From positions 11,973 to 75,972 of the forward strand of contig JAUXWS010000019.1 in the NCBI GenBank assembly GCA_030685015.1: a stretch of DNA of 64,000 nucleotides. The letters are read 5' to 3'. Both the position numbers and the translations under genes were made by a program. This document shows positions 41,068 through 57,735 of this stretch, piece after piece. The notes beneath the pieces were generated by a model, which was not told the DNA's origin, searched no databases, and saw only the letters and a list, made by a program, of their open reading frames with translations. Each line of letters starts with the position of its first letter. Position 1 is the stretch's first letter. Origin of the DNA: a bacterium. Its GTDB lineage: Bacteria; CAIWAD01.

Positions 41068-41511
41068 ATGAGGAAAGCACTCTGGTTGGCGCTCGTGCCG
41101 GCCCTGCTCTTCGCATCCAGCGATCCGACCGAGCCGGCCGACACGCCGGGGGCGGTCGCCCCCGCCCACAGCGGGATCGCCGTGGTCGCGCCCCTGGCGC
41201 CCAGCGCCGTGGATCTGGCCCACAAGGAGGCCATGATGGCTCTGGCCCTGGAACGACAGGCCTTCGTCGAGGCCTTCAACTGGAACCGGGGCGGTGATCG
41301 GGTCGAGACGGCCCGCCTCCATGCCCGCGCCATGGACGGCTTCCACCGCCGGGAGCTGGAGCTGAAGCGCGACTGGTACGCGGCCAGCGGCCAGCTTGAT
41401 CGCCTCGCCGCGATCGAGGCCGCCCTGGTGGCCCTGGAGGAAGCCGGGCGCCCGCAGCCCGAATTGGATCTGCCGCGCCCGGCGGCCCAACCACAGGAGG
41501 TGACCCCATGA
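41068..41511 (+). CDS. Module 1 small exported protein A1
   Basis: A 147-residue protein with a signal peptide (MRKALWLALVPALLFASS), a Pro/Ala-rich linker of about 35 residues, and a helical core with ALALERQAFVEAFNW, GGDRVETAR and FHRRELELKRDWYAASGQ. The core is conserved in the A proteins of modules 2 and 3. Exported to the periplasm or beyond. GGAGG lies before the ATG, and the last codons (QEVT) hold the ribosome site of B1. I do not recognise the family; it could be a chaperone, inhibitor or accessory subunit of the co-encoded peptidase. Confidence 0.82.
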   Translation: MRKALWLALVPALLFASSDPTEPADTPGAVAPAHSGIAVVAPLAPSAVDLAHKEAMMALALERQAFVEAFNWNRGGDRVETARLHARAMDGFHRRELELKRDWYAASGQLDRLAAIEAALVALEEAGRPQPELDLPRPAAQPQEVTP

Positions 41512-42008
41512 CCCGCATCGTCCTGGGTGGCCTGCTGGCCGCCCTGACCCTTGGCCTCGGCGCGATGGCCGAGGAGCGCCGCGTGGATGACGGCATCTAC
41601 ACGCTCGGCGAGGCGGCGGAGCCCACCCTGGTGCCCGCCGCCCAACTGGTGGAATCCCCCGCCAGCGGATCGCCCCCGGTCGAGTCGGGTCCGCTGGCCG
41701 AGCTGCGCGAGCGGCACCGCGCCGCGATGGAGGCCCTTATCTCCAGCCCGGACGCCGTGCGCGACCACGGGCAGGTCCTTGCCATGGAGCGGGAGCTTGT
41801 GGCGCTGAAGGAGGCCCAGCAGCGCGAGGAGCTGCTGTGGCTCAAGTCCGACGCCCTGGCCCGTGGGGACCAGGCCCTGGCCGCACGCCTGGACGAGGCG
41901 CTGGAGGAGCTGACACCGCGGATCCTGCCGCCCGCCGGGCCGGCCGTCCCGCGGGATCCGGCCACGGGCCGCACCCTGGACGGCCGTGACGAGGGAGGTG
42001 TGAGATGA
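41508..42008 (+). CDS. Module 1 small exported protein B1
   Basis: A 166-residue protein with a signal peptide (TRIVLGGLLAALTLGLGAMA), then EERRVDDGIYTLGE, a low-complexity linker, and a helical part with LAELRERHRAAMEAL and EAQQREELLWLKSDALARGD. The tail PRDPATGRTLDGRDEGGVR is shared with B2 and B3. Starts by ATGA overlap with A1 and ends by ATGA overlap with P1; the EGG codons supply the GGGAGG ribosome site of P1. Family unknown. Confidence 0.82.
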   Translation: MTRIVLGGLLAALTLGLGAMAEERRVDDGIYTLGEAAEPTLVPAAQLVESPASGSPPVESGPLAELRERHRAAMEALISSPDAVRDHGQVLAMERELVALKEAQQREELLWLKSDALARGDQALAARLDEALEELTPRILPPAGPAVPRDPATGRTLDGRDEGGVR

Positions 42009-45000
42009 ACAAGCTGTTGATGACATCCCTGCTGGCGCTGGGTCTGATGGCCACCAGCGCCCTGGCCCTGCGCGACCTCTCCCTCAAGCAGCAGGGGGAG
42101 CTGCCCCGCGACCAGTACGTGGACCTGGTGGATCCCGACCACGTCCACCTGGACAAGCTGGTGGTGAAGTTCGTCGAGGACACGCGCGTGCGTCTGCGCG
42201 ACGGCCGCCTTGTCTCCCTGGAAGGATGGCGCACGGACGCCCTGGAGGCCTTCCTCAAGGCTCGGCCGCACCTCTCCGTCGAGCGCCTCTTCTCCAGCGT
42301 GGGCGAGGAGGAGCTGGAGGCCTACATCGCCCGGGGTGAACAACTGAGCGGCTACGATGTGGCCGATCTCAACAACTGGTACCTCTTCCGCGTGGACGAC
42401 CGACGTGTGGACGCCAAGGGCCTGCTGCTGGATCTGCTCCAGCTGGACCTGGTGCAGACCGGCTACTACGAGCCGAAGGGCGAGCCTGCTGTGTGCGGGA
42501 CGGACCCCGCCCCCACCACCCCCAACTACGTGGGCAGCCAGGGCTACCGCGGCGCGGCGCCCACGGGCGTGGACATCCAGTACGCCTGGGACTACAACCC
42601 CACCTACGGCAATGGGATCAGCAGCTACTGGTTCCAGGACATGGAGGTGGGGTGGTGCGAGGACCATGAGGATTTCGCCAGCACCTTCACCATCCGCAAC
42701 CCGCCGGACTCCGATGTCCCCGACTATTACAACCACGGCACGGCCGTGATGGGGATCGTGGGGGCCTGCGACGACGGCAAGGGCGTCACCGGCCTGGTGC
42801 CCGACGTGCGCCTCACGGCCCGCACCGTCCTCAACCACAGCTCCTATGCGGACGCCCTCATCGCCATCGGCAATGATTTGGTGACGGGTGAGACCTACCT
42901 GATCGAGCTGCATGCCCAGGGTCCGGACCAAGGCACCACCTGCGTCTGCAACTGCGCCCAGTTCCGCTACATCGCCATCGAGTACTGGCAGGGCAACTTC
43001 GACGCCATCCTGGCCAACAGCGCCAACGGCCGATACTGCGTGGAGGCGGCGGGCAACGGCAGCATGGACCTGGACTGGGCCGGCTACAGCGGCGCCTTCA
43101 ACCGCTCCTTCCGCGACAGCCAGGCCATCATCGTGGGGGCTGGCACCTCGGGCAGCGTCCACAACCCGGAGTGCTGGACCAACCACGGCACCCGCATCGA
43201 CGCCTACGGCTGGGGCAGCAACGTGGTCACCACCGGCTACGGCACCCTCTTCAACCAGGCCGACTGCCAGCAGGACTATGCCAGCGGCTTCGCCGGCACT
43301 TCCAGCGCCAGCCCCATCGTGGCAGGGCCGGCCGTCAGCCTGGCCCTGATCCACAACGCGCAGTTCGGCAGCTACCCCGCGCCCCTGACCCTGCGCAGCC
43401 GCCTGCAAACCAACGGCACGCCCCAGGGACCGGTGGACACCTGGAAGGAACTCAGCGTCCAGCCCAACATGAAGGGCATCCTCGCCCCCGACCTGCTGCC
43501 CTACACGCCGGTCGACTGGAGCGCCAGCGTCGTGCCCTCCAATGTGACGGGCACAAATACCGTGTCCGCCAACCTGCCCCCGGCTCCGGCCGCCACCTAC
43601 ATCGACCTCTGCTTCCTCAACCAGAGCCGCTACGGCAGCGTGGCCTCCGCCCTCTCCCGGCTCTATCGGGATGACGTGTTCATCGGGTCCGCCACCGCCA
43701 CCAACCTGGGACCCTTCACAAGCGCGGCGGCCAACGATTTTTCCCAGACCATCCGTGGCGGCCTCCATTACCTGAAACTGGTCTGCGATCCCCTAAGCGC
43801 CGTCGACGAGAGCGTGGAGACCAACAACACGGAGGTCCTCGCCTACTGCTGGGATCCCGCCATCCTGGCCATCAACAGCCCCCAGACCTTCACCCGCGGA
43901 CCGAAGAAGAATCCCGAGGGATACTCCTCGTTTGCCCTGGACGGCTACCGCATGAGCACCACGGGGTGGTGGCGGGTCTTCGGCGTGATGCCGGCCTCTT
44001 CCGCCGGCGATTACGACCTGCGCCTTTACAACACGGCGCCCACCTCCACCACGGGCTGGACCAGTCACGTCAGCTCGTCGTTACACTCGTCAGCCACGGA
44101 CTTCGTGGGCAGCAACGGCAACCTGGTCTCCGACGGCATCCATGCCGGGGTGGTCAATCACAACGACACCAGCGATTCCTACACGGTGGAGTCCGACATC
44201 TCCAGCTACCTGGGATCCGTCCCGGCAAGCCAGGCTCTGGTGGGCAACTACAGCCTGGATGCCGGCGAGATCCTCGACGCCTTCGAGATGAACTGCACGG
44301 CCGGCTCCCCGGTGTGGCTGAACTTCCAGGTCACGGACGGCGCGGCCGACCTGGCCGTCCTCGTCTATGGACCCGGCACGACCTATTTCAGCCGGGACAG
44401 CGCCCTGTGGGCCTTGAATGCGGGTGGGGCCGGCGCCAGCGAGATGGGCATCTTCACGCCCGCGGAGAGCGGCTTCCACGGCATCGTCGTATGCAAGAAC
44501 CTGCGCAGCGACCTGGCCAACCAAGTCTCTTACGACTTCTACTGGGGCCCCCCCGCCGGCGACCTCGTCACCGTGGCGCGGGCCAGCTGGACGGCGCCCG
44601 TGGTGGCGCGCAACAGTGGCGGCACAGTGGGCGCGCTGCCCGCCGTGCTCAATGAGGGTCCAAGCTTGGGCGACGCCGGCGTGGCCAACATCGGCCTGGG
44701 CAGCGTGCCAGCCGGGGCCAACCTGGCCATCACCCTGGACGGGGTCACCGTCTACACCAGCGGAAACTTCGCCTCCCTGGCCCCCGGCTACGAGGGTGAG
44801 GTCGCCAACCGGTCCATCGGCGCGGTCAAGGGGGGCCGCCACGAGCTGGGCGCCATCCAGGACGTGAACAGCGAGGTGGCCGAGCAGCTGCCCGACGGCG
44901 AGGCCAACAACCGGCACTATCGGCAGTACGCCTGGGCGCCCCACCCGCTGACCTTCGGAGTCCAGGAGTCCCGGACGGCGGCGCCCAACTACGTCAACCC

Positions 45001-46096
45001 CCAGAACCCGGACTACTGGAGCCAGCCCGGACCCAACCAGGACGGCTACCTCCTGTCCACCGCCTTCTGGACGGCCGTGGCGGCCATGCCCACCCATGCC
45101 GAGGGCTATCTGCCCACCTACATCTACGCCAACGCGGACACGAACCCCATTTCGGCCTACCTGTATCCCGTCGCGACCAACTATCCGCCCTACGGTGGCA
45201 TCAGCCTGGTGGCCGCCAACGGCAACGTGCTGGGCAATGTCGTCCAGCGGAACGTGGGTGTGAGCAACGGCTGGGCCTATCCCACCCATTCCACGCAGCC
45301 CTACACTGTCCAGATGGCCCATTGGATGGACGACCTGGAGGCGGGACATGTCTACCCGGGCACCTTGGCCGCGGGCGCGGGTGGCGGGCAGCTGCTGCAC
45401 ATGCGGGACATGCACCTCTTCGCCGGTGAGAGCGTTTCCCTCAGGCTGTTCAACAACTCCACCGTGGACCTGGGCCTGGCCATCTTCCAGGCCGGCCTGG
45501 GCTACGCGACCTTGGACAACGCGGCGGCCGTCTTCAACGGCGCCGGCGTGGGTGTCGACGAGAGCGGCGCTTTCACGGCCACGGTGACGGGCTGGCATGG
45601 CGTGGCGGTCTACCGCAGCGGATACCAGGACCTGGGGCCGGCGGCGCCCTACAGCTTGGTCATGGGAACCCGGCGTCCGGTGGCCATCACCGACCTGGAG
45701 CTGATCCCCGTGGAGCTGGACGCCTCGGACGGCTATTACCTCTTCACCCTGCAATTCGGCGACGTGACCCAGGATGTCAACGGAGATCCATTGGTCGTGG
45801 ACTACTACCGCTTCTGGTGGAGCTTCGACCCCTACGCGGAATTCCCCAACGGCTGGGTGAATTGGGACAACTGGCCGGTGAGCGAGCTGGTGAACTTCCT
45901 CTCCACCACGGGCGGAGCGACCGGCATCTACTTCCTGGTCACGGCGGTGGACAACAACGGCGTGCTGCTGGCCACCTCGCACCCGGACCTGGTGGGCGCC
46001 GCCGATGCGGAAGCCGTGCGCCGGGCACCCCTGGCCGGCGGCATTCCGGGTCAGTCGCTTGGCGCGGGTGAAGCCGTGGACAGGCCCCTCCCTTGA
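42005..46096 (+). CDS. Module 1 secreted S8 (subtilisin-like) peptidase P1
   Basis: A 1363-residue exported serine peptidase. Signal peptide MNKLLMTSLLALGLMATSALA; a pro-region to about residue 185; the catalytic domain with Asp212 (FQDMEVGWCEDHEDF), His244 (NHGTAVMGIVGA), oxyanion Asn351 (EAAGNGSMD) and Ser433 (GTSSASPIVAG). A CVCNC motif at residues 313-317 and many other Cys suggest disulfides or metal. After residue 500 two similar blocks of about 370 residues each combine a CARDB-like unit (DESVETNN) and a PPC-like unit (GYHGIVV / GWHGVAVY type), then a final FnIII-like domain. No known C-terminal sorting signal was found. Substrate unknown. Confidence 0.9.
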   Translation: MNKLLMTSLLALGLMATSALALRDLSLKQQGELPRDQYVDLVDPDHVHLDKLVVKFVEDTRVRLRDGRLVSLEGWRTDALEAFLKARPHLSVERLFSSVGEEELEAYIARGEQLSGYDVADLNNWYLFRVDDRRVDAKGLLLDLLQLDLVQTGYYEPKGEPAVCGTDPAPTTPNYVGSQGYRGAAPTGVDIQYAWDYNPTYGNGISSYWFQDMEVGWCEDHEDFASTFTIRNPPDSDVPDYYNHGTAVMGIVGACDDGKGVTGLVPDVRLTARTVLNHSSYADALIAIGNDLVTGETYLIELHAQGPDQGTTCVCNCAQFRYIAIEYWQGNFDAILANSANGRYCVEAAGNGSMDLDWAGYSGAFNRSFRDSQAIIVGAGTSGSVHNPECWTNHGTRIDAYGWGSNVVTTGYGTLFNQADCQQDYASGFAGTSSASPIVAGPAVSLALIHNAQFGSYPAPLTLRSRLQTNGTPQGPVDTWKELSVQPNMKGILAPDLLPYTPVDWSASVVPSNVTGTNTVSANLPPAPAATYIDLCFLNQSRYGSVASALSRLYRDDVFIGSATATNLGPFTSAAANDFSQTIRGGLHYLKLVCDPLSAVDESVETNNTEVLAYCWDPAILAINSPQTFTRGPKKNPEGYSSFALDGYRMSTTGWWRVFGVMPASSAGDYDLRLYNTAPTSTTGWTSHVSSSLHSSATDFVGSNGNLVSDGIHAGVVNHNDTSDSYTVESDISSYLGSVPASQALVGNYSLDAGEILDAFEMNCTAGSPVWLNFQVTDGAADLAVLVYGPGTTYFSRDSALWALNAGGAGASEMGIFTPAESGFHGIVVCKNLRSDLANQVSYDFYWGPPAGDLVTVARASWTAPVVARNSGGTVGALPAVLNEGPSLGDAGVANIGLGSVPAGANLAITLDGVTVYTSGNFASLAPGYEGEVANRSIGAVKGGRHELGAIQDVNSEVAEQLPDGEANNRHYRQYAWAPHPLTFGVQESRTAAPNYVNPQNPDYWSQPGPNQDGYLLSTAFWTAVAAMPTHAEGYLPTYIYANADTNPISAYLYPVATNYPPYGGISLVAANGNVLGNVVQRNVGVSNGWAYPTHSTQPYTVQMAHWMDDLEAGHVYPGTLAAGAGGGQLLHMRDMHLFAGESVSLRLFNNSTVDLGLAIFQAGLGYATLDNAAAVFNGAGVGVDESGAFTATVTGWHGVAVYRSGYQDLGPAAPYSLVMGTRRPVAITDLELIPVELDASDGYYLFTLQFGDVTQDVNGDPLVVDYYRFWWSFDPYAEFPNGWVNWDNWPVSELVNFLSTTGGATGIYFLVTAVDNNGVLLATSHPDLVGAADAEAVRRAPLAGGIPGQSLGAGEAVDRPLP

Positions 46097-46115
46097 CCTT
46101 GATGCTTTCATCCAT

Positions 46116-46147
46116 GGCCCCCGATCCAGCCCGGATCGGGGGCCTTT
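46116..46147 (+). terminator. Terminator of module 1
   Basis: A 12-bp perfect stem GGCCCCCGATCC / GGATCGGGGGCC (46116-46127 with 46133-46144), five-base loop, then TTTCCC. The T-run is short but the stem is strong. Confidence 0.85.
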
Positions 46148-46197
46148 CCCATGGGCCGGCCTTCTGGCCTCTTCGTCATGGGTCGGCATTTCCTTCC

Positions 46198-46229
46198 AGG
46201 ATACCCGACCCTGTGTCGGACACCTGTCC
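46198..46229. repeat. REP-like palindrome 1 (degenerate)
   Basis: Right arm GTCGGACACCTGTCC matches the other copies exactly; the left arm is altered (AGGATACCCGACC). It lies after the module 1 terminator, like the copies after modules 2 and 3. Confidence 0.7.
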
Positions 46230-46265
46230 GGGCATTCATCCAATTTTCCAGCATTTTGATTTCTC

Positions 46266-46294
46266 TTGCAGCTCTTGCTGAACTCGTTTAACAT
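46266..46294 (+). promoter_or_regulatory. Promoter of protease module 2
   Basis: TTGCAG (46266-46271), 17-base spacer, TAACAT (46289-46294), with a flank (CATCCCACA) shared with module 1 after the -10 hexamer. About 125 bases upstream of the A2 start. Confidence 0.6.
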
Positions 46295-46419
46295 CCCACA
46301 CGCATCATAGCCCTTGTCAAAAGGGCGCACACAGCATTGAGAAAACAACACACCGACGATTCCGCCGCGCGACGCAAGGCATTGGTCCGCACGGATGGTC
46401 GCCCCAGCAAGGAGGATCC

Positions 46420-46866
46420 ATGAGACACGCATTCTGGTTGGCGCTCCTGCCCGGCCTGTTGTTCGCCTCCGGCGATCAGGCAAGGCAGGCCGACGCCCCG
46501 GGAGTGGCCGCGCCAGCCACTCCCGCCGCCACCGTGACGGCGCCGCCCCCGCCCCCCATCCCGGCGGACCTGGCCTGCAAGGAGGCGCTGGACGCCCTGG
46601 CCCTGGAGCGGCAGACTTTTGTCGAGTCCTTCGACTGGGGCCAAGCGGGTGATCCCGACGAGCTGGCCCGCCGCTACTCCCGCACCATGGACGACTTCGT
46701 CCGGCGGGAGCTGGAGATCAAGCGCGACTGGTACGAGGCCACCGGCCAGACCGACCTGCTGGCGGGGGTTGAAGCCAGCCTGGACCGCCTCACCCAACCG
46801 CAGCGACTCCTGCCTGAGATCGAGCAGGAGCGCGGCACGCCCATCGCCCCGGAGGTGACACCATGA
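46420..46866 (+). CDS. Module 2 small exported protein A2
   Basis: A 148-residue orthologue-like copy of A1: signal peptide MRHAFWLALLPGLLFASG, Pro/Ala linker, then ALALERQTFVESFDW, QAGDPDELARRYSRTMD and FVRRELEIKRDWYEATGQ. AAGGAGG lies six bases before the ATG. The terminal PEVTP codons include the GGAGGTGA ribosome site for B2. No recognised family. Confidence 0.82.
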   Translation: MRHAFWLALLPGLLFASGDQARQADAPGVAAPATPAATVTAPPPPPIPADLACKEALDALALERQTFVESFDWGQAGDPDELARRYSRTMDDFVRRELEIKRDWYEATGQTDLLAGVEASLDRLTQPQRLLPEIEQERGTPIAPEVTP

Positions 46867-47372
46867 GACGTTTCATTCTGGGCGGGCTGCTGGTCGCGTT
46901 GGCCACCGCCGTCCTGGCCCCCGCCGCCGGCGCCGAGGAGCGCCGCGTGGATGACGGGTTCTACACCATCGAAGAGCCGGCGGAACCCGCCGCGGCGGAT
47001 CCCGCCCAGCTGGCGCCGGCCGCGGGCGACATCCCCGCTCCCCTTGTACCCGCGCCGCTGGCCGAGGTGCGCCAGCGCCATCGCATCGAACTCGAGACGC
47101 TGACCGCCGGCCTGGCCGCCGCCCGCGACCAGGCGGAGCGTGAATCCCTGGAGCGGCAGGCCATGGACCTCAAGCTCGCCCAGCAGCGCGAGGAGCTGCA
47201 GTGGCTAATGGCCGACGCCCTGGCCCGCGGCGACTCCGCCTACGCGGCGCAGTTGGGCGAGGCGCTGGACGCCCTGGTCCCCCGCCCCGCCCCGGTCCCC
47301 GTCACCTTGGTGCCCCGCGATCCCGCCACGGGCCGCGCCCTGGACAGCCGTGACGAGGGAGGTGTGAGATGA
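46863..47372 (+). CDS. Module 2 small exported protein B2
   Basis: A 169-residue copy of B1. Signal peptide (RRFILGGLLVALATAVLAPAAGA), EERRVDDGFYTIEEPAEP, linker, then VRQRHRIELETLTAGLAAARD, SLERQAMDLKLAQQREELQW and ADALARGDSAYAAQLGEAL, predicted coiled-coil or helical hairpin. The tail PRDPATGRALDSRDEGGVR is conserved. ATGA overlaps at both ends. The last 15 or so codons and the following P2 start are nearly identical in DNA to module 1. Confidence 0.82.
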   Translation: MRRFILGGLLVALATAVLAPAAGAEERRVDDGFYTIEEPAEPAAADPAQLAPAAGDIPAPLVPAPLAEVRQRHRIELETLTAGLAAARDQAERESLERQAMDLKLAQQREELQWLMADALARGDSAYAAQLGEALDALVPRPAPVPVTLVPRDPATGRALDSRDEGGVR

Positions 47373-50300
47373 ACAAGCTGTTGATGACATCCCTCCTGGC
47401 GCTGGGCCTCATGGCCACCAGCGCCCTGGCCCTGCGCGACCTCTCCCTCACGCAGCAGGGCGAGCTGCCCCGCGACCAGTTCGTCGACCTGATCAACCCC
47501 GACCACTACCGTCTGGATCTGCTGGTCGTCCAGTTCGTGGAGGACACGCGCATCCGATTGCGCGACGAGCAGCTGGTCTCCCTCGAAGGCCGCAATCTCT
47601 CCGCGGTGGACGCCTTCCTCAAGGCGCATCCGGAGATCACCGTGGAGCGCCTCTTCCAGAGCATGGGAGAAGAGGAGCTGGACGCCTACGTGGCCCTGGG
47701 CGAGCAGCGCAGCGGCATCGACGTGGCCGACCTCAACAACTTCTACCTCTTCCGCGTGGACGGCCGCAACAGCGACGCCAAGGGCCTGCTGCTTGACCTG
47801 CTCAAAGTGGAACTGGTGCAGACCTGCTACTACGAGCCCATCGGCCAGCCGGCCGTCTGCGGCAGCGATCCGGCGCCCGTCACGCCCAACTGGACGGCCA
47901 GCCAGGACTACCGCGAGGAGGCCCCCGCCGGCGTGGACATCCAGTACGCCTGGGCCTTCGATCCCACCTACGGCAACGGGGTCAGCAGCTACTGGTTCCA
48001 GGACTTGGAGTGGGGCTGGTGCGAGGACCACGAGGACTTTGCCTCCACCTTCCTCATCCGCAACCCGCCCGACTCCGGGACTGCCGATTTCTACAACCAC
48101 GGCACGGCGGTGATGGGGATCGTGGGCGCCTGCGACGACGGCAAGGGCATGACCGGCCTGGTGCCGGACGTGCGTCTCACTGCCCGCGTGGTGAGCAACC
48201 ATGCCAGTTACGCCGACGCCCTCATCGCCATCGGCGGAGACCTGTTGCTGGGCGAGACCTACCTCATCGAGATCCACGCCCCGGGTCCCAGCCAGGGCAC
48301 CACCTGCTATTGCAACTGCGACCAGTTCCAATACATCGCCATCGAGTACTGGACGGCCAACTACAACGCCATCCTGGCCAACAGCACCAACGGACGCTAC
48401 TGCATCGAGGCCGCCGGCAACGGCAGCATGGACCTGGACTGGGCCGGCTACGGCGGCGCCTTCAACCTGGGTGTGCGCGACAGCCAGGCCATCATCGTGG
48501 GCGCCGGCACCTCGGGCAGCGTGCACAACCCGGAGTGCTGGACCAACCACGGCACGCGCATCAGCGCCTACGGCTGGGGTAGCGGCGTCTACACGACCGG
48601 CTACGGCTACCTCTTCAACCAGACGGACTGCCAGCAGGACTACACCCATGACTTCGGCGGCACCTCCAGCGCCAGCCCCATCGTGGCCGGACCCGCCATC
48701 AGTCTGGCCCTCATCCACAACAACATGTACGGCAACTATCTAGCCCCCAGCACGCTGCGCACACGTCTCGCCATCAACGGCACGCCCCAGGGACCGACCG
48801 ATCCCTGGAAGGAGATCAACGTGATGCCCAACATGAAGGGCATCCTGGCGCCGGACCTGCGACCCTACCTTTATGGGGACTGGGTGGCCAACATCGTCCC
48901 CTCCGACGTGACGGGAACCCACACCCTGCCCGCCAACCTGCTTCCGGCGCCGGCGACCACCTATTTCGACTGGGCCTGGCACAACGCCGGATTGTACGGG
49001 GCGGCCTCGCCGGCCCGCGCCTACCTCTACCAGGATGACGCCTACATCATCTACGCCTACAACAGCACGCTCAACCCCAACACCACGAGCAGCTACAGCG
49101 ATTATGGCGTGGTGATGCGGGGCGGACTGCACTACATCAAGAACCAACTGGATGCGGACAACTTGGTCGACGAAAGTGTGGAGACCAACAACAAGCAGAT
49201 CATCGCCTACCGCTGGGATCCGGTCGCACTGGCGTCCAATGCGCCCCAGTCCTTCAGCCGCGGCCCCAAGAAGAATCCGGAGGGCTACAGCTTCTACGCC
49301 TCGGACGGCTATGGCAACGGCGGCGGCTTCCCGGGCTGGTGGGATGTCACGGGCGTGATGCCGGCCACGGGCACGGACTACGACATCTACCTGTTCAACG
49401 TGGACCCCACGCCCACTAACGGCTGGACCACCACCGTGGCGGCCAGCGGCTCCGTCTCCGGCACGGACTTCGTGGGATGCAACAACAACACCACGACGGA
49501 CGGCGATTTCACGGCGGTCATCAACTACAACGACTCCGCCGAGGGCTACACGGTGGAGCGGGAGGGCTCCGTCTACCTGGGCAGCCCCCCCGCCACGCAG
49601 AGCTTGGTGGGCAACTACAGCCTGGCCGCCGGCGAGATCCTGGACGTGTGGGAGATCAACTGCACGGCGGGCACGCCGGTCTGGTTCAACTTCGTGGCCA
49701 CGGGCGGCACGGCAGACCTCGCCGTCTTCATCTTCGGGCCGTCCGCCACCTACTTCTCCCGCGGCGGCGCCACCTGGACGCTCAACACGGGCGGCGCCGG
49801 CGCCAGCGAGATGGGCATCTTCACACCCACCGCGTCCGGCTACCATGGCATCGTGGTGTGCAAGAACCTGGTCTACGACCTGGACGAGCACGTCAACTAC
49901 AGCTTCTATTGGGGACCGCCCGCCGGCGACTTGGTCACCGTGGCCCGCGCCGGCTGGACGGCGCCCGTGGTGGCGCGCAACAGCGGCGGCAGCGTGGGCG
50001 TGCTGCCCGCCGTGCTGAACGAGGGCCCCAGCCTGGGTGACGCCGGCGTGGCCAACATCGGGATGGGCACCACCCCCGCCGGTCCCAACCTGGCCTTCCA
50101 CCTGGACGGACCTTTCGTCTACAGCAGCGGGGACTTCGGCGCCCTGGCGCCGGGCTACGAGGGCGAGATCAGCGGCCGCAGCATCGGCACGGTCAAGGGC
50201 GGACGCCACGAGCTGGGCGCCATCCAGGACTACTTGGGCGAAGTGGCCGAACAGCTTCCCTATGGCGAGACCAACAACACCCATTACGAGCAGTACGCCT

Positions 50301-51430
50301 GGTCGCCCTTCGTGCCGACCAACCTGACGCCATTCTCGCGTGCGGCAGCCCCCAACTGGCGAAACTTCAACAACCCCGGCAACTGGGACCTGCCCGGCTT
50401 CAACCAGGACGGTTATCGCATCACGACCAGCTACTGGACAGGCTTTGCCGCCATGCCCACCATCGCCACGGAGCAACTCAACGTCTGGTCCTACAACGAC
50501 GCCCTCACGGGGTCGACCACGGCCTTCCTCACGACCGTCGAGTCCAACTTTCCCGGTCCGGGGAGCATCAGCTTCACCATGTTCAACGGCAACGTGCTGG
50601 GGAACGGCCTGCAGAGGAACGTGGGTGTTTGCAACAACTGGGCCTACCCCAACGTGACTCCCACCACGCCCTACACCGTGCAAGTGAGCCCGCGGCTGCA
50701 GGATCTGCAGGCGGGTTACATCGTGAACGGCACCCTGGCCACGGGCGCGGGGGGCGGACAGCTGCTGCACACCTATGACATCTACCTGACCGCCGGGCAG
50801 AGCTACCAGCTCAACCTCTTCAACCGGTCCACCATCAACCTGGGGGCGGCCATCTTCCAGGCCGGGACATCCTTCAAGGGCCTGGACGACGCGGTGGCCG
50901 TCTTCAACGCGAACGGCGCCGGCCAACATGAGTCCGGGACCTACATGGCGACGACCACAGGCTGGCACGGCGTGGCGGTCTACCGCAGCGGCTACCAGGA
51001 CCTGGGACCCGCCGCCGACTACGGCATCGTGGCGGGCAACTGGCGCCCGGCCCAGCCGCTCATCATCACCTTCACGCCGGTGGATTTCAGCCCGGGCAAC
51101 GCCACGGTCTACGCCGAGATCACGCCGGTGACGACGGACATCAACGGCAACCCGCTCGTCATCGACCACTACAACCTGTACTACGACGACGATCCCTACA
51201 TGGGCTCGCCGGGAGTCCTGCCCACCACGGCCACCAGCTGGTACCTCTACTACGGCAACGTCGGGATGCTGGAGCGAGGCTTCCTGCGCGTCACGGCGGT
51301 GGATAACAACGGTGTGCTGGTGGCGGACAGCCATCCGCATCTGCCCTTGCCGGACCCCATGGCCATCCAGCAGTATCCCATCGACCTCCTCACGCCCCAA
51401 CCGGCGGGAGGCAGTGCGCCCTCTGAATAG
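47369..51430 (+). CDS. Module 2 secreted S8 peptidase P2
   Basis: A 1353-residue paralogue of P1 with an identical signal peptide. Catalytic residues align at the same numbers: Asp212, His244 and Ser433 (FQDLEWGWCEDHEDF, NHGTAVMGIVGA, GTSSASPIVAG). The CxCxC motif is CYCNC from residue 313. The two CARDB/PPC-like blocks and the FnIII-like end (VIDHYNLYYDDDPYM) are present. The C-terminal 80 residues differ from P1 and resemble P3. Start by ATGA overlap with B2. Confidence 0.9.
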   Translation: MNKLLMTSLLALGLMATSALALRDLSLTQQGELPRDQFVDLINPDHYRLDLLVVQFVEDTRIRLRDEQLVSLEGRNLSAVDAFLKAHPEITVERLFQSMGEEELDAYVALGEQRSGIDVADLNNFYLFRVDGRNSDAKGLLLDLLKVELVQTCYYEPIGQPAVCGSDPAPVTPNWTASQDYREEAPAGVDIQYAWAFDPTYGNGVSSYWFQDLEWGWCEDHEDFASTFLIRNPPDSGTADFYNHGTAVMGIVGACDDGKGMTGLVPDVRLTARVVSNHASYADALIAIGGDLLLGETYLIEIHAPGPSQGTTCYCNCDQFQYIAIEYWTANYNAILANSTNGRYCIEAAGNGSMDLDWAGYGGAFNLGVRDSQAIIVGAGTSGSVHNPECWTNHGTRISAYGWGSGVYTTGYGYLFNQTDCQQDYTHDFGGTSSASPIVAGPAISLALIHNNMYGNYLAPSTLRTRLAINGTPQGPTDPWKEINVMPNMKGILAPDLRPYLYGDWVANIVPSDVTGTHTLPANLLPAPATTYFDWAWHNAGLYGAASPARAYLYQDDAYIIYAYNSTLNPNTTSSYSDYGVVMRGGLHYIKNQLDADNLVDESVETNNKQIIAYRWDPVALASNAPQSFSRGPKKNPEGYSFYASDGYGNGGGFPGWWDVTGVMPATGTDYDIYLFNVDPTPTNGWTTTVAASGSVSGTDFVGCNNNTTTDGDFTAVINYNDSAEGYTVEREGSVYLGSPPATQSLVGNYSLAAGEILDVWEINCTAGTPVWFNFVATGGTADLAVFIFGPSATYFSRGGATWTLNTGGAGASEMGIFTPTASGYHGIVVCKNLVYDLDEHVNYSFYWGPPAGDLVTVARAGWTAPVVARNSGGSVGVLPAVLNEGPSLGDAGVANIGMGTTPAGPNLAFHLDGPFVYSSGDFGALAPGYEGEISGRSIGTVKGGRHELGAIQDYLGEVAEQLPYGETNNTHYEQYAWSPFVPTNLTPFSRAAAPNWRNFNNPGNWDLPGFNQDGYRITTSYWTGFAAMPTIATEQLNVWSYNDALTGSTTAFLTTVESNFPGPGSISFTMFNGNVLGNGLQRNVGVCNNWAYPNVTPTTPYTVQVSPRLQDLQAGYIVNGTLATGAGGGQLLHTYDIYLTAGQSYQLNLFNRSTINLGAAIFQAGTSFKGLDDAVAVFNANGAGQHESGTYMATTTGWHGVAVYRSGYQDLGPAADYGIVAGNWRPAQPLIITFTPVDFSPGNATVYAEITPVTTDINGNPLVIDHYNLYYDDDPYMGSPGVLPTTATSWYLYYGNVGMLERGFLRVTAVDNNGVLVADSHPHLPLPDPMAIQQYPIDLLTPQPAGGSAPSE

Positions 51431-51451
51431 AGTCCTCAACCAACAAACAGC

Positions 51452-51487
51452 GGCCGGCCCGGAAATCAATCTGGGCCGGCCTTTTTT
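51452..51487 (+). terminator. Terminator of module 2
   Basis: Stem GGCCGGCCC / GGGCCGGCC (51452-51460 with 51473-51481), 12-base loop, followed by TTTTTT. Confidence 0.92.
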
Positions 51488-51805
51488 CGGCAAAATCTGC
51501 CGAGGTGTCCGACCAAGGGTCGGACACCTGTCCAGCCAACCTGACACCGTCTCATGTAATGCATCACGCCCGTTGTAAAATCAACAGAAAAACAGGTTCA
51601 GTTAATGCGATTGTTAGTTTAACTGTTTGATTTTCCCCCCTCAGCATGTAGCTTGCCGCCCATTCTCGACTGAACTGGTCCTCTTATGAGGAGCATTATC
51701 GGGAAGGATGCCGGTCCCCCAGCCGGCTGCAACACAGCACAACCGGAACATCATCATCAGCCGTCGCTCCGGAAGGGGCGTCCGGCCCATCCTGAAGGAG
51801 GAGTC
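51488..51805. other. Intergenic region upstream of module 3
   Basis: Contains REP-like palindrome 2, an AT-rich stretch with an inverted repeat CAGTTAA / TTAACTG (51599-51605, 51619-51625), a weak promoter candidate TTGATT (51627-51632) with TAGCTT (51649-51654) at 16-base spacing, and a leader to A3. No supported gene. Confidence 0.45.
51503..51533. repeat. REP-like palindrome 2
   Basis: AGGTGTCCGACC-AAG-GGTCGGACACCTGTCC type palindrome: arms GGTGTCCGACC and GGTCGGACACC are perfect complements. Sits 16 bases after the module 2 terminator. Confidence 0.9.
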
Positions 51806-52267
51806 ATGAAGCACGCAACTTGGATGGCCTGTGCCGTTCTGCTGGGCTTGTCCAGCGCCGGCCTCGCCGCCGAAGCGGACAGCCCGGGCCGCACGGAGGA
51901 CGCCAACTTGACCGCCAGCGGCGTTCACGCCATCCCACAGCCGGTCGTCGTTGCCGACAACCCGCACCAGCAGGCCATCCTGGCATTGCACCAGGAGCGG
52001 CAGGCCTACGTCGAGGCCTTCGACTGGAACCGCGCGGGGGACCGCCAGGCCCTGAAGGGCGAGTATGCCGCAACCATGGACAGCTTTGAGCTGCGCGAGC
52101 TGGAGCTGAAGATCGACTGGTATGAGGCGACCGGGCAGACCCAGCTGTTGGAGCGCACTCGCGCCACCCTGGAGCGTCGCACCAATCCCGCCAGGCAGCT
52201 ACCTGACATCGCGGGCGACCGCCTGCCCTCCACCGAGGTGAATCAGCAGCCGGAGGTGACCCGATGA
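51806..52267 (+). CDS. Module 3 small exported protein A3
   Basis: A 153-residue member of the A group. Signal peptide MKHATWMACAVLLGLSSAGLAA, linker, then LALHQERQAYVEAFDWNRAGD, AATMDSF and RELELKIDWYEATGQTQLL, the conserved core. AAGGAGGAGTC precedes the ATG; an in-frame ATG 120 bases upstream lacks this and would remove the signal peptide from the N-terminus. The end PEVTR carries the ribosome site of B3. Confidence 0.82.
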   Translation: MKHATWMACAVLLGLSSAGLAAEADSPGRTEDANLTASGVHAIPQPVVVADNPHQQAILALHQERQAYVEAFDWNRAGDRQALKGEYAATMDSFELRELELKIDWYEATGQTQLLERTRATLERRTNPARQLPDIAGDRLPSTEVNQQPEVTR

Positions 52268-52773
52268 ACAAGTCCCTCATCCTTGCCTGCCTGCTGGCCG
52301 GACTGGCCTCCGCCAGCTTGGCCGTTGACGGCGAGATCCAGGATCGGCGCGACGACAACGCCACCTATCGTCCGGCGGAGCCGGATCAGGTGGAGGCCGG
52401 ACCGGCCGCCGTGGCCGGCCCCCTGACCCCCGAGCGCGCCCAGACTCCCAGCGGTCCGCTGGTCGAGATGCGCCAGCGCCATGCCGCCGAGCTTGAAGCG
52501 CTGGTGCAAGCCTTTGACCAGGCCCGTGACGAAAGCGAGCGGCAGAGCCTGGAGCGCCAGGCGGCCTCGCTCAAGCTGGCCCATTCCCGGGAAGAGCTGG
52601 GTCTGTTCCGCGAAGCGGCCCTGGCCCGCGGCGATGAAGCACGGGTCCTGGACCTGGAGCAAGCCCTGAGCGATCTGGAGCCCCGTCCTGCGACGCCGGC
52701 CAACGTGTTCGTGCCGCGCGATGCAACCACCGGCCGTGCCCTGAATGGCTCCGAGGAAGGAGGTGCCCGATGA
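52264..52773 (+). CDS. Module 3 small exported protein B3
   Basis: A 169-residue member of the B group. Signal peptide NKSLILACLLAGLASASLA, then the more divergent DGEIQDRRDDNATYRPAEP, linker, and helices MRQRHAAELEALVQAFDQARD, SLERQAASLKLAHSREELG and EAALARGDEARVLDLEQAL. Tail PRDATTGRALNGSEEGGAR. ATGA overlaps with A3 and P3. The changed N-terminal motif (RDDNATY for RVDDGxY) is the main difference from B1 and B2. Confidence 0.8.
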   Translation: MNKSLILACLLAGLASASLAVDGEIQDRRDDNATYRPAEPDQVEAGPAAVAGPLTPERAQTPSGPLVEMRQRHAAELEALVQAFDQARDESERQSLERQAASLKLAHSREELGLFREAALARGDEARVLDLEQALSDLEPRPATPANVFVPRDATTGRALNGSEEGGAR

Positions 52774-55700
52774 GAAAGCTGATCCTTTGCAGTGTGCTGG
52801 CCGCCTTGGGCACGGGCCTGCTGGCCTCCGACGCTCACGCCCTGCGCAACCTGGCCCTCAAGCAGCAAGGCGAGCTGCCCCGCGACCTGTATGTCGACTT
52901 GATCGATCCGGACCACGTCTACCTGGACAAGCTGGTGGTGAAGTTCGTCGAGGACACGCGCATCCGCTTGCGCGACGAGCGCCTGGTCTCGCTGGAAGGC
53001 TGGGGCTTGTCGGGCCTCGACTCCTTCCTCAAGGCCAACCCCTCCATCACGGTCGAGCGTCTCTTCGAGAGCATGGGCGAGGAGGAGCTGGACAGCTACG
53101 TGGCGGAGGGCGAGCGCTTGAGTGGCTGGGACGTGGCCGACCTCAACAACTGGTACCTCTTCCGCATCGAGGGCCGCAACGCGGACGCCCAGGCCCTGCT
53201 CCTTGACCTGCTCAAGCTGGACTTGGTGCAGACAGGCTACTACGAGCCCATTGCGTCCCCCGCCGTCTGCGGCAGCGATCCGGCCCCCGTCACGCCCAAC
53301 TGGGCGGCCAACCAGGACTACCGCGAGGCGGCGCCCACCGGCATCGACATCGATTACGCCTGGGCGCATGACCCCACTTACGGCAATGGTGTCTCCAGCT
53401 ACTGGTTCCAGGATCTGGAGTGGGGCTGGTGCGAGGACCATGAGGACTTCGCCAGCACCTTCACCATCCGCAACACGCCCGATTCCACCGACCCCGATTT
53501 CTTCAACCACGGCACGGCGGTGGTTTCCATCGTGGGCGCCTGCGACGACGGCAAGGGCGTCACCGGCCTCGTGCCGGATTGCCGCATGACCGCCCGCGTG
53601 GTGAGCAACCACGCCAGCACGGCGGCCGCCCTCATCGCCATTGGCAGCGACCTGATCACGGGCGAAACCTACTTGATCGAGATGCATGCCCAGGGTCCCG
53701 ACCAGGGCACCACCTGTGTCTGCAACTGCACCCAGTTCCGCTACATCGCCATGGAGTACTGGCAGGCCAACTTCGACGCCATCCTGGCCAACAGCACCAA
53801 CGGCCGCTTCTGCGTCGAGGCCGCCGGCAACGGCAGCATGGACCTGGACTGGGCCGGCTATGCCGGCGCCTTCAACCTCAACGTGCGCGACAGCCAAGCC
53901 ATCATCGTGGGCGCCGGCACCTCGGGCGCCGTGCACAATCCCACTTGCTGGACCAACCACGGCACGCGCATCAGCGCCATGGGCTGGGGTGAGAACGTCT
54001 ATGCCGCGGGTTATGGCGGCCTCTTCAACCAGACCGGCTGCCAGCAGGATTACACGTCCACGTTCAGCGGCACCTCCAGCGCCAGCCCCATCGTCACGGG
54101 CGCGGCCATCTCCCTGGCCTTGATCCACAACGCCCAGGAGGGCAGCTATCCTTCCCCCCTCACCCTGCGCAGCCGCCTGCAGACCAACGGCACGCCGCAA
54201 GGCCCCACGGACACGTGGAAGGAGATCAACGTCCTGCCCAACATGAAGGGCATCCTCGCCCCCGACCTGGAGCCCTACGCGCCGGGTGGCTGGGCGGCCC
54301 CCATCGTCCCCTCCAATGTGACGGGTACCACCGTGCTGCCCGCCAGCCTGCCGCCGGCCCCGGCCGACACCTACTTCGATTTCGCCTGGGTGAACTGGAG
54401 CCGCTACGGCAGCGTGCCCAACTCCTGGTCCTACATCTACCGGGACGACGTGCTCTTCTTCACGGCCCTCGCCGCCAACCACGCCCCCTTCACCTACCGC
54501 CATGCCACCGACTGGGCTGGCGCGGTGCGGGGTGGCCTGCACTACATGCGCCAGACCTGCGACCCCAACGGCATCGTGGATGAGAGCGTGGAGACCAACA
54601 ACGGCTACGTGGTGGGTTACCGCTGGGCGCCCACGGCCATCGCCAACAACGTCCCGCAGACATTCACCCGGGGTCCCAACCGCAGTCCACAGGGGTACAG
54701 CACCTTTGCGCTGGACGGATACTCCAACGGTGGCAACTTCACTGGCTGGTGGGATGTCTTCGCCGTGATGCCCGCCAACGCCTCCGACTACGACATCTAC
54801 ATGTACAACACCAATCCCACGCCCACGACGGGCTGGAACTCCACCGTGGCCGTTTCGGCCGGCGTCAGCACAGTGGATTTCGTGGGCTGCAACAACAACA
54901 GCACGAGCGACGGTGATTACGTGGGTATCATCAACTACTCCAACAGCGACGAAAGCTACACGATTGAGGGCGAGGGCTCGACCTACATCAGTGTGCCGCC
55001 CGCCGTTCCCACCCTCGCCTCCAGCGGCGCCATCGCCGCCGGCGAGATCATCGACGTGCTCGAGATGCAGATCACGGCCCTTGACCCGGTCCACTTCGTC
55101 CTGGACATCACCTCGGGCAACGCCGACCTGGCCCTCTTCATCTTCGGCCCCACCTCCACCTACTTCGCCCGCTCCGGGGCCCAGTGGACGCTGAACGGCG
55201 CCGGCAACGGCGGCGACGAGGCGGGCACCTTCACGCCCACCGCCACCGGCTTCCACGGCATCGTCATCTGCAAGAACCTGCGCACCCAGGTGGGCGAGAG
55301 CGCCGGCTACAGCCTCTACTGGGGTCCCCCCGCCGGCGACCTGACGCACACCACCCTGGCCGGCTGGACGGCCCCCGTCGTGGCCCGCAATGCCGGCTCC
55401 GTGGGCGTGCTGCCCGCCGTGCTGAATGAGGGCACGACCTACGCCGACGCCGGCCTCATCAACATCGGCGCCGGCACCATGGCGAGCGGATCGAACCTGG
55501 CCTTCTACCTGGACGGTCCTTTCGTCTACAGCAGCGGCAACTTCTCCGCGCTGGCGCCGGGCTGGACGGGCTCCATCAGCAACCGCGACATCGGCACGGT
55601 CAAGGGCGGCCGCCACGAGCTGGGTTCGGTGATCGACTATCTGAGTGAAGTGGCGGAAGAACTGCCCAACGGCGAGACCAACAACGCCCACTTCGCGCAG

Positions 55701-56819
55701 TACGCCTGGGCACCCTATGCCCTGGCCCAGCTGACGCCCCTGTCGCGGACGCCGGCGCCGAACTGGATCAACAGCAACAACCCGAACGCCTGGTCCAATC
55801 CCGGCTTCAATCAGGACGGCTACCAGCTGAGCACGACCTATTGGACCGGCGTGGCCGCCATGCCCACCATCGGTTCGGAGCAGCTCAATGTCTGGGCCTA
55901 TGATGACGCCGACAATGGGTCGAGCTCGGCCTTCATCGCCACGGTGGAGTCCAACTTCCCGGCCCCGGGCGAGATCAGCTTCATCATGGCCAACGGCAAT
56001 GTGCTGGGCAACTATGTGACGCGGAATGTGGGCGTCACCAACAACTGGGGCTATCCTGGCGTCATCCCCAGCACCAACTACACAGTGCAGATGAGCCAGC
56101 GGATCGCCGACCTCCTGGTGGGCACGGCCACTGCCGGCACCCTGAACGCCGGTGCTGGAGGCGGGCAGATCCTCCACACCTATGACATCAACCTCGTTGC
56201 GGGCGAGACCTATCCCATCAACCTGCGCAACTTCAGCACGGTGAACCTGGGCGTGGCCCTCTTCGAGGCCGGCCAGAGCTTCACCAGCCTGGACAACGCG
56301 ACGGCCGTGTTCAACAGCGGGGGCTCCGGACAGAACGAGGCCGGGACCTTCACCGCCTCCGTCAGTGGTTGGCACGGCGTGGCGGTCTACCGCAGCGCCT
56401 CCACCGACCTGGGGCCGGCCGCTTCCTACAACCTGTCCATCGGTTCGCGCAAGCCGGCGACGCCGCTCATCGTCTCCATCGTGCCGGTTGACTTCACGGG
56501 CGGCAACGCCATCGTGCACGTGGAGATCACACCGGTCAACCAGGACATCAACGGCAACCCCATCGTGGTGGACTACTACAACCTCTACTACGACGACAAC
56601 GGCTACATGACCTCTCCCGGCGTGGAGGCCACGACTGGCACCAGCCTGGACCTCTACTACCACAACGTGGGCATGACGCAGCAGGGTTATCTGCGCGTGA
56701 CGGCCGTGGACGTGGATGGTGTGGTGGTGGCGGATACCAATCCCGACCAGCCCCTGCCCGATGCGCGGACGACGCCGCGGGCTCCGGCGGGCTTCCTGCA
56801 GGTGGCGCAAGGCAGGTAG
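52770..56819 (+). CDS. Module 3 secreted S8 peptidase P3
   Basis: A 1349-residue paralogue of P1 and P2 with a different signal peptide (MRKLILCSVLAALGTGLLA). Catalytic residues are Asp215, His247 and Ser436; the CxCxC motif is CVCNC from residue 316. Asn in EAAGNGSMDLDWAG is retained. Two CARDB/PPC-like blocks and an FnIII-like C-terminus (VVDYYNLYYDDNGYM) follow. All three peptidases keep every catalytic residue, so none is a decayed copy. Start by ATGA overlap with B3, GGAGG upstream. Confidence 0.9.
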   Translation: MRKLILCSVLAALGTGLLASDAHALRNLALKQQGELPRDLYVDLIDPDHVYLDKLVVKFVEDTRIRLRDERLVSLEGWGLSGLDSFLKANPSITVERLFESMGEEELDSYVAEGERLSGWDVADLNNWYLFRIEGRNADAQALLLDLLKLDLVQTGYYEPIASPAVCGSDPAPVTPNWAANQDYREAAPTGIDIDYAWAHDPTYGNGVSSYWFQDLEWGWCEDHEDFASTFTIRNTPDSTDPDFFNHGTAVVSIVGACDDGKGVTGLVPDCRMTARVVSNHASTAAALIAIGSDLITGETYLIEMHAQGPDQGTTCVCNCTQFRYIAMEYWQANFDAILANSTNGRFCVEAAGNGSMDLDWAGYAGAFNLNVRDSQAIIVGAGTSGAVHNPTCWTNHGTRISAMGWGENVYAAGYGGLFNQTGCQQDYTSTFSGTSSASPIVTGAAISLALIHNAQEGSYPSPLTLRSRLQTNGTPQGPTDTWKEINVLPNMKGILAPDLEPYAPGGWAAPIVPSNVTGTTVLPASLPPAPADTYFDFAWVNWSRYGSVPNSWSYIYRDDVLFFTALAANHAPFTYRHATDWAGAVRGGLHYMRQTCDPNGIVDESVETNNGYVVGYRWAPTAIANNVPQTFTRGPNRSPQGYSTFALDGYSNGGNFTGWWDVFAVMPANASDYDIYMYNTNPTPTTGWNSTVAVSAGVSTVDFVGCNNNSTSDGDYVGIINYSNSDESYTIEGEGSTYISVPPAVPTLASSGAIAAGEIIDVLEMQITALDPVHFVLDITSGNADLALFIFGPTSTYFARSGAQWTLNGAGNGGDEAGTFTPTATGFHGIVICKNLRTQVGESAGYSLYWGPPAGDLTHTTLAGWTAPVVARNAGSVGVLPAVLNEGTTYADAGLINIGAGTMASGSNLAFYLDGPFVYSSGNFSALAPGWTGSISNRDIGTVKGGRHELGSVIDYLSEVAEELPNGETNNAHFAQYAWAPYALAQLTPLSRTPAPNWINSNNPNAWSNPGFNQDGYQLSTTYWTGVAAMPTIGSEQLNVWAYDDADNGSSSAFIATVESNFPAPGEISFIMANGNVLGNYVTRNVGVTNNWGYPGVIPSTNYTVQMSQRIADLLVGTATAGTLNAGAGGGQILHTYDINLVAGETYPINLRNFSTVNLGVALFEAGQSFTSLDNATAVFNSGGSGQNEAGTFTASVSGWHGVAVYRSASTDLGPAASYNLSIGSRKPATPLIVSIVPVDFTGGNAIVHVEITPVNQDINGNPIVVDYYNLYYDDNGYMTSPGVEATTGTSLDLYYHNVGMTQQGYLRVTAVDVDGVVVADTNPDQPLPDARTTPRAPAGFLQVAQGR

Positions 56820-56882: not shown

Positions 56883-56912
56883 AGGTGTCCGACCATGGGT
56901 CGGACACCTGTC
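56883..56912. repeat. REP-like palindrome 3
   Basis: Arms GGTGTCCGACC and GGTCGGACACC around ATG. Follows the module 3 terminator and lies upstream of the RAYT-type transposase gene, whose other side is bounded by palindrome 4. Confidence 0.92.
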
Positions 56913-57034: not shown

Positions 57035-57667
57035 ATGTCACACCCTCCTCGACAGGATCATCCCGGCACCATGCATCATGCCATCGTGCGCGCCCGCAAT
57101 CGGGAGCCGGTCTTCCACAACGATGGTGATCGCTGGGACTACCTGAACCTCCTGCACCGACACTCGCGGGCGACACAAACGGAGATCCACGCGTGGGTGC
57201 TCATGAGCAATCACGTGCATCTTCTTGTCACTGTTCGACGCGAGGGTGGCCTGGCGGGTCTTTTGCGATTGGCAAACGGAACCTACAGCCGTGACTACAA
57301 TCGCCGCCATGGCCGCATGGGCAGCAACTGGCAGCCCCACGCCACCATCAAGCCGGTCGTCTTCCTCGATTACTGTGTCAGCTGCCATCTCTACATCGAG
57401 ACCAATCCCGTGCGGGCTGGCTTGGTCCAGCGGCCAGAGGACTATCGGTGGTCCTCCTGTCGGCAACACATGCTTGGAACCTGTGATGGCATCACCAATG
57501 ACTGCCCATGGTATGCCGCGCTGGGCCGATCCGCCAAGCGTCGGTTGAATGTCTATCAACACCTCATGCACCGCTACATGGACAAGCTGAGCCGGCAAAA
57601 GGAGCTGGGCGGTGCTGACAAAGACCGAGGCTGGATCACTGTGGAAGCCGACCTGCGGATTCCTTAG
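57035..57667 (+). CDS. REP-associated tyrosine transposase (RAYT), IS200-like Y1 family
   Basis: A 210-residue single-strand transposase. The N-terminal PGTMHHAIVRARNREPVF and the HUH motif LMSNHVHLLVTV are present, and the catalytic Tyr lies in FLDYCVSCHLYIETNPVRAG. A final PEDYRWSS segment fits the RAYT clade. It is flanked by REP-like palindromes 3 and 4, its likely substrates. ACAGGAGCC precedes the ATG. A GC hairpin with TTTT (57000-57020) sits just upstream and may limit read-through or translation. Confidence 0.92.
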   Translation: MSHPPRQDHPGTMHHAIVRARNREPVFHNDGDRWDYLNLLHRHSRATQTEIHAWVLMSNHVHLLVTVRREGGLAGLLRLANGTYSRDYNRRHGRMGSNWQPHATIKPVVFLDYCVSCHLYIETNPVRAGLVQRPEDYRWSSCRQHMLGTCDGITNDCPWYAALGRSAKRRLNVYQHLMHRYMDKLSRQKELGGADKDRGWITVEADLRIP

Positions 57668-57704: not shown

Positions 57705-57735
57705 AGGGTGTCCGACCCATGGTCGGACACCTGCC
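57705..57735. repeat. REP-like palindrome 4
   Basis: AGGGTGTCCGACC-CAT-GGTCGGACACCTGCCC, with perfectly complementary arms of 11 bases. Lies 38 bases after the RAYT stop. Confidence 0.92.

Follow-up and report, generated by a model that had tools for sequence, protein, structure and literature searches.

Why should a large secreted peptidase be encoded, three times in a row, behind the same two small exported proteins? This question is raised by a locus in the window, the 64,000-nucleotide stretch of DNA analysed here, in which three consecutive modules (41068-46096, 46420-51430, and 51806-56819, all on the forward strand) each consist of two small genes, A and B, followed by a gene, P, for an S8-family peptidase. 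The initial annotation took A and B to be dedicated partners of the peptidase. From comparison with related genomes, the association appears to shift from the S8 domain to another part of P, an array of repeated units that we call R-blocks (a working name coined in this analysis).

Layout and relatedness of the gene trios

In module 1, A1 (41068-41511, 147 aa), a small exported helical protein that aligns with A2 and A3 and is preceded by the Shine-Dalgarno sequence GGAGGA, shares an ATGA overlap with B1 (41508-42008, 166 aa), likewise small, exported, and helical. B1 overlaps in the same way with P1 (42005-46096, 1363 aa), an exported S8 peptidase with two R-blocks and an Fn3-like tail. Module 2 comprises A2 (46420-46866, 148 aa), B2 (46863-47372, 169 aa), and the exported S8 peptidase P2 (47369-51430, 1353 aa), and module 3 comprises A3 (51806-52267, 153 aa), B3 (52264-52773, 169 aa), and the exported S8 peptidase P3 (52770-56819, 1349 aa). 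Sizes therefore range over 147-153 aa for A, 166-169 aa for B, and 1349-1363 aa for P, with gene starts set by motif and not by a trained predictor. The common gene order and the 4-nt ATGA overlaps described initially hold at 6/6 internal junctions (A/B and B/P in each of the three modules), and at all six a strong Shine-Dalgarno sequence (GGAGGTG, GGGAGGTG, AAGGAGG) lies within the 3' end of the upstream gene. Because this ribosome-binding site of the next gene overlaps the codons for the C-terminal peptides that are kept across copies (PEVTP in A, EGGVR in B), the conservation of these peptides is at least partly explained by what they encode at the RNA level, and a functional role for them was set aside. 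Export had been predicted for A, B, and P, and all nine proteins do have a signal-peptide-like N-terminus without a lipobox Cys; the signal peptide is identical between P1 and P2.

A terminator had been assigned to the end of each module. For modules 2 and 3 this stands, as intrinsic-terminator-like hairpins on the forward strand follow P2 (51452-51481, a 12-bp stem and then TTTTTT) and P3 (56841-56872, a 14-bp stem and then CTTTTT), but the G+C-rich hairpin 3' of P1 has no T run. The three copies had also been counted as independent. With amino acid identities of 61-67% for P, 39-54% for A, and 42-55% for B, the modules are, judged by these alignments, old paralogues and not independent occurrences, and independence has to be supplied by other genomes.

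Three perfect 25-nt palindromes (GGTGTCCGACC-NNN-GGTCGGACACC) are found at 51504-51528, 56884-56908, and 57707-57731, with none expected in shuffles. Between them lie module 3 and, at 57035-57667, a gene for a Y1_Tnp transposase (Pfam E 3.5e-11). Palindromes and gene together look like a REP/RAYT-type system, possibly one linked to the duplication of the modules.

The large protein and the small-protein family

P is built of a propeptide-like N-terminus, the S8 domain, two tandem R-blocks, and the Fn3-like tail. The S8 domain scores 40.5 bits in P1 and 41.0 bits in P2 against a Pfam cut-off of 21.8, and the P3 match of 47.8 bits in the genome-level search is above the cut-off as well. The motifs FQD, NHGT, AAGN, and GTSSASP are present in P1-P3, and the catalytic D-H-N-S set is thus kept in all three peptidases, as was first reported. 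An R-block is a unit of ~360 residues made of a CARDB domain (above the Pfam cut-off in P1, P2, and P3), a middle beta region, and a PPC-like domain. In P1, R-block 1 covers residues 497-851 (43493-44557) and R-block 2 residues 854-1222 (44564-45670); the corresponding blocks, also on the forward strand, lie at 48857-49924 and 49931-51040 in P2, where they span residues 497-852 and 855-1224, and at 54267-55334 and 55341-56447 in P3. The two blocks within P are about 27% identical, and the predicted R-block structure is a poor model (mean pLDDT 49). Subtilases with CARDB/PPC C-terminal domains are known, and P resembles them as an S8 peptidase with CARDB and PPC-like parts; P differs in its tandem R-blocks and co-translated A/B pair, a combination not described in the literature that we found.

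The statement that A and B resemble no known family agrees with our profile searches, in which neither A and B nor 18 family members matched any Pfam or NCBIfam family above the cut-off; even at E <= 0.1 the 18 members gave no Pfam match, the OmpH family included. A and B look distantly homologous to each other, as members of one family of exported three-helix proteins found in several bacterial lineages. The profile comparison of A with B gives an hhalign E of 2.3e-4 at a probability of only 45%, the B profile retrieves the A of the same genus (G001) at E 7e-4, and three helices are common to all members, the first short and the second long, with its end near 'REEL..A...GD'. For B2, AlphaFold2 predicts a three-helix core at residues 64-138 (helices at 64-86, 90-122, and 125-138, pLDDT about 95) preceded by a disordered linker. 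As is usual for bundles of this size, a fold search of the PDB with the B model was uninformative, with a best Foldseek E of 1.2, a mixture of helical proteins in the VIA-align rows, and nothing beyond generic helical bundles.

The family also has less typical members. In the phylum of G029, a subfamily of short A/B-like proteins ('LQLSPMYxEI...', L160-L167), also exported and helical, is solitary, with no gene for a large secreted protein directly downstream. Two A/B-like units share a single open frame at a contig end (L109/L090; G002:C246, 71-739, minus strand), perhaps through fusion or a frame error. In a variant operon, found at L180 (G157:C48) and L203 (G275:C164), the gene for a second small exported protein ('LDRxxxSSxAxVRxxV') separates the A/B-like gene from that of a zincin with R-blocks.

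What the small genes accompany in other genomes

The initial annotation had looked to recurrence of the trio elsewhere for support, and the full A-B-P order is present in four more genomes, belonging to the same genus (G001), the same family (G003), the same class (G004), and another phylum (G238). The G238 trio was found by a domain-wide R-block search in which A and B were not used as queries. Most of these and the following relatives come from fragmented metagenome assemblies, with taxonomic ranks as assigned by the search tool. The P relatives of G004 (L041) and G238 (L208, gene from 3634) have TGIFERG at the catalytic Asp position and keep His, Asn, and Ser; they may be subtilases that two lineages preserve in an inactive or altered form. 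Despite the changed Asp position, both loci retain A, B, and the R-blocks.

Family members also precede large proteins of other kinds. In G001:C238, small genes A' and B' are followed by an M43 protein with two R-blocks, with ATGA overlaps at both junctions. In the window's own genome (G000:C39), one small gene (B') lies directly upstream of an M43 metallopeptidase with one R-block, an arrangement repeated in G003:C75. In the phylum of G029, the partner is either a HEXXH zincin or a protein without a peptidase domain (about 860 aa, R-blocks and a sorting domain), and a FlgD_ig/Por_Secre_tail domain ends most of the R-block partners. There, outside G029 itself, 39/59 family matches have an R-block ORF at most 2.1 kb downstream and in the same orientation. 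Among the 27 strongest matches (E <= 1.4e-18), 25 precede an R-block ORF and the other 2 are at contig ends. In most pairs, the small gene and the R-block gene are 9-18 nt apart or overlap by 4 nt. In G277, a family member precedes a sortilin-like propeller protein whose R-block region is beyond the stretch read.

In the converse comparison, the window's genome has 16 S8 loci, yet A/B-family matches are confined to the three modules of the window and the M43 locus G000:C39, and the 13 S8 loci outside the window have no A/B match. Likewise, no A/B gene is near the S8 homologues that lack R-blocks (G032:C33, G002:C159, and G003:C28). CARDB alone was rejected as the link, since, of about 20 loci retrieved with CARDB and inspected, none that lacked the full R-block was preceded by an A/B-like gene. 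As it is R-blocks and not S8 domains that the family follows, a partner or inhibitor specific to the peptidase was rejected as the leading explanation. Across these loci, the feature common to the large partners is shown by domain comparison to be the R-block array, and not one catalytic domain. The idea of A and B as dedicated partners hence survives in part: recurrent gene order and co-divergence with the neighbour speak for it, but dedication to a peptidase is not supported, since the family also precedes proteins without a peptidase domain. The observation that had been named as evidence against it, P homologues without A and B and A and B without P, was in part made, as S8 genes without A/B and A/B genes without S8 both occur.

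Across lineages, R-block genes are found directly preceded by a small exported gene, but there are exceptions, among them solitary members of the family and R-block genes for which no small gene could be recognised upstream (L147, L152, and G003:C36, for example). At L143, L145, L148, and L154, R-block genes were scored as partnerless, yet a diverged small gene overlaps or adjoins them. Among 386 genomes, 9 have both the family and full R-blocks, 1 has only the family, 1 only full R-blocks, and 375 neither (Fisher p 2e-16), where the family was counted from at least one match at E < 1e-8, R-blocks had to be full-length, the E-value limits were chosen after the results had been seen, and several of the genomes had contributed to the profiles (G238, G275, G277, and G408 had not). 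The two exceptions, G002 (small genes, no full block) and G418 (the reverse), are both fragmented assemblies. In 21 pairs, distances between small proteins correlate with distances between their R-blocks (Spearman 0.64), a value reached in 0/2000 shuffles, those within genomes included. Measured in this way, co-divergence shows that small and large genes are inherited as units, which does not imply that their products are in contact.

In the window's lineage, the number of R-blocks equals the number of small genes in 9/10 modules (2:2 in seven, 1:1 in two), modules that are related by descent and represent few independent events. The tenth, at G003:C36, has a single R-block; the 200 nt of contig that precede it show no small gene. 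In this lineage, the second, r2-type block and the A-type small gene occur only together. More speculatively, this suggests one helper per block, with B serving block 1 and A serving block 2. Such a rule would not be general, because there is one small gene for two blocks in the phylum of G029, and one for three in G408:C11.

Possible roles of the small proteins

We consider the best explanation, at a probability of about 0.5, to be that these proteins are co-translated periplasmic escorts or chaperones for R-block arrays. The small protein, encoded first, would be synthesized just ahead of its client and pass the inner membrane before it. Its helical core would bind the CARDB/PPC-like repeats of the client and keep them soluble, or aid their folding or assembly in the periplasm, as a dedicated escort or steric chaperone; upon display or secretion of the enzyme, the client would be released, or the helper would stay bound. 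That the arrays need help in folding is inferred from gene order, translational coupling, the export of both partners, and the absence of a tie to catalysis, together with the precedents of Lif and PrcB. The lipase-specific foldase Lif and other steric chaperones are dedicated, co-encoded periplasmic helpers of one secreted enzyme (PMC3352829, PMC7046727). Lif differs in being membrane-bound and multi-domain and in serving one lipase family, whereas the A/B family accompanies a repeat module common to several enzymes; A, B, and 18 family members have no match to the lipase chaperone family of Pfam. Skp (OmpH) is also a small exported helical-hairpin protein and a periplasmic chaperone, and Skp chains are among the structural neighbours of the B model, at Z scores of 7.5 and 7.1 that are in the range of unrelated helical proteins. 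Unlike A and B, however, Skp is not paired with a single client gene, and it has no sequence match to them.

The main rival to an escort role, which we regard as rather unlikely, is that P forms a secreted or cell-surface complex in which A and B remain as permanent structural subunits, like PrcB and PrcA in the dentilisin of Treponema denticola. The prcB-prcA-prtP unit likewise places two genes for exported accessory proteins first and that of a secreted S8-family peptidase last. Accumulation of the peptidase depends on the small PrcB: in a non-polar prcB deletion, prtP is still transcribed and PrtP is undetected (PMC8167434). Co-divergence and pairing would fit a stable complex equally well, and the predicted disordered linker before the helical core could act as a tether. 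However, the dentilisin accessories are lipoproteins, and PrcA is a 70-kDa protein that is cleaved, whereas A and B lack lipidation, with no lipobox Cys in any of A1-A3 and B1-B3, and are about 16 kDa, helical, and mutually homologous. No surface anchor is seen in them, they match no described family, homology to PrcB or PrcA was not found among the Pfam/NCBIfam matches, and their family also accompanies other large proteins. On the side of the peptidase, P3 matches the NCBIfam PrtP model weakly (E 0.001, far below the cut-off).

Other roles appear less probable still. As sorting adaptors, A and B would replace or aid a C-terminal secretion signal in outer-membrane export. The window's genome has 93 T9SS-type C-terminal sorting domains and a Pfam scan finds none on P1-P3, which end in the Fn3-like tail; the window's lineage has two small partners and no such end, as opposed to one small partner and mostly a FlgD_ig/Por_Secre_tail end in the phylum of G029. 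Since a small protein occurs with or without a sorting domain, it is not a simple substitute for one, and we find this role improbable. A neutral operon arrangement, in which general helical proteins of the envelope hitch-hike with R-block genes, would accommodate the solitary family members, but it seems very improbable given that the pairing recurs in several lineages with differing catalytic domains in the partner, and that co-divergence is pair-specific within single genomes. Helper inhibitors of secreted proteases are known, and co-translation with the peptidase in the window would suit inhibitors, or propeptides acting in trans, that silence the enzyme inside the cell. We give this the lowest standing of all, because the family also precedes M43 peptidases, other zincins, and proteins without a peptidase domain, because the P homologues of G004 and G238 retain A and B although the catalytic Asp is replaced, and because P carries a propeptide-like N-terminus of its own.

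If the escort reading is taken further, the family may tentatively be seen as a new class of module-specific periplasmic chaperones, in which three-helix proteins of several lineages would each be tuned to their own CARDB/PPC-like array whatever the catalytic domain, with one helper per block in the window's lineage; we think this broader proposal possible, with the odds somewhat against it. We found no description of the small/R-block pairing in the literature. Even should A and B turn out to be stable subunits, the conserved pairing of small and large genes would provide hints of function for many genes now called 'hypothetical'. If the proposal is true, an unnamed protein family would gain a testable job, and the chaperone class would follow a repeat module and not an enzyme, with possible use as a co-expression helper for laboratory production. 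It would also account for the production of very large secreted beta-repeat enzymes by some uncultured bacteria.
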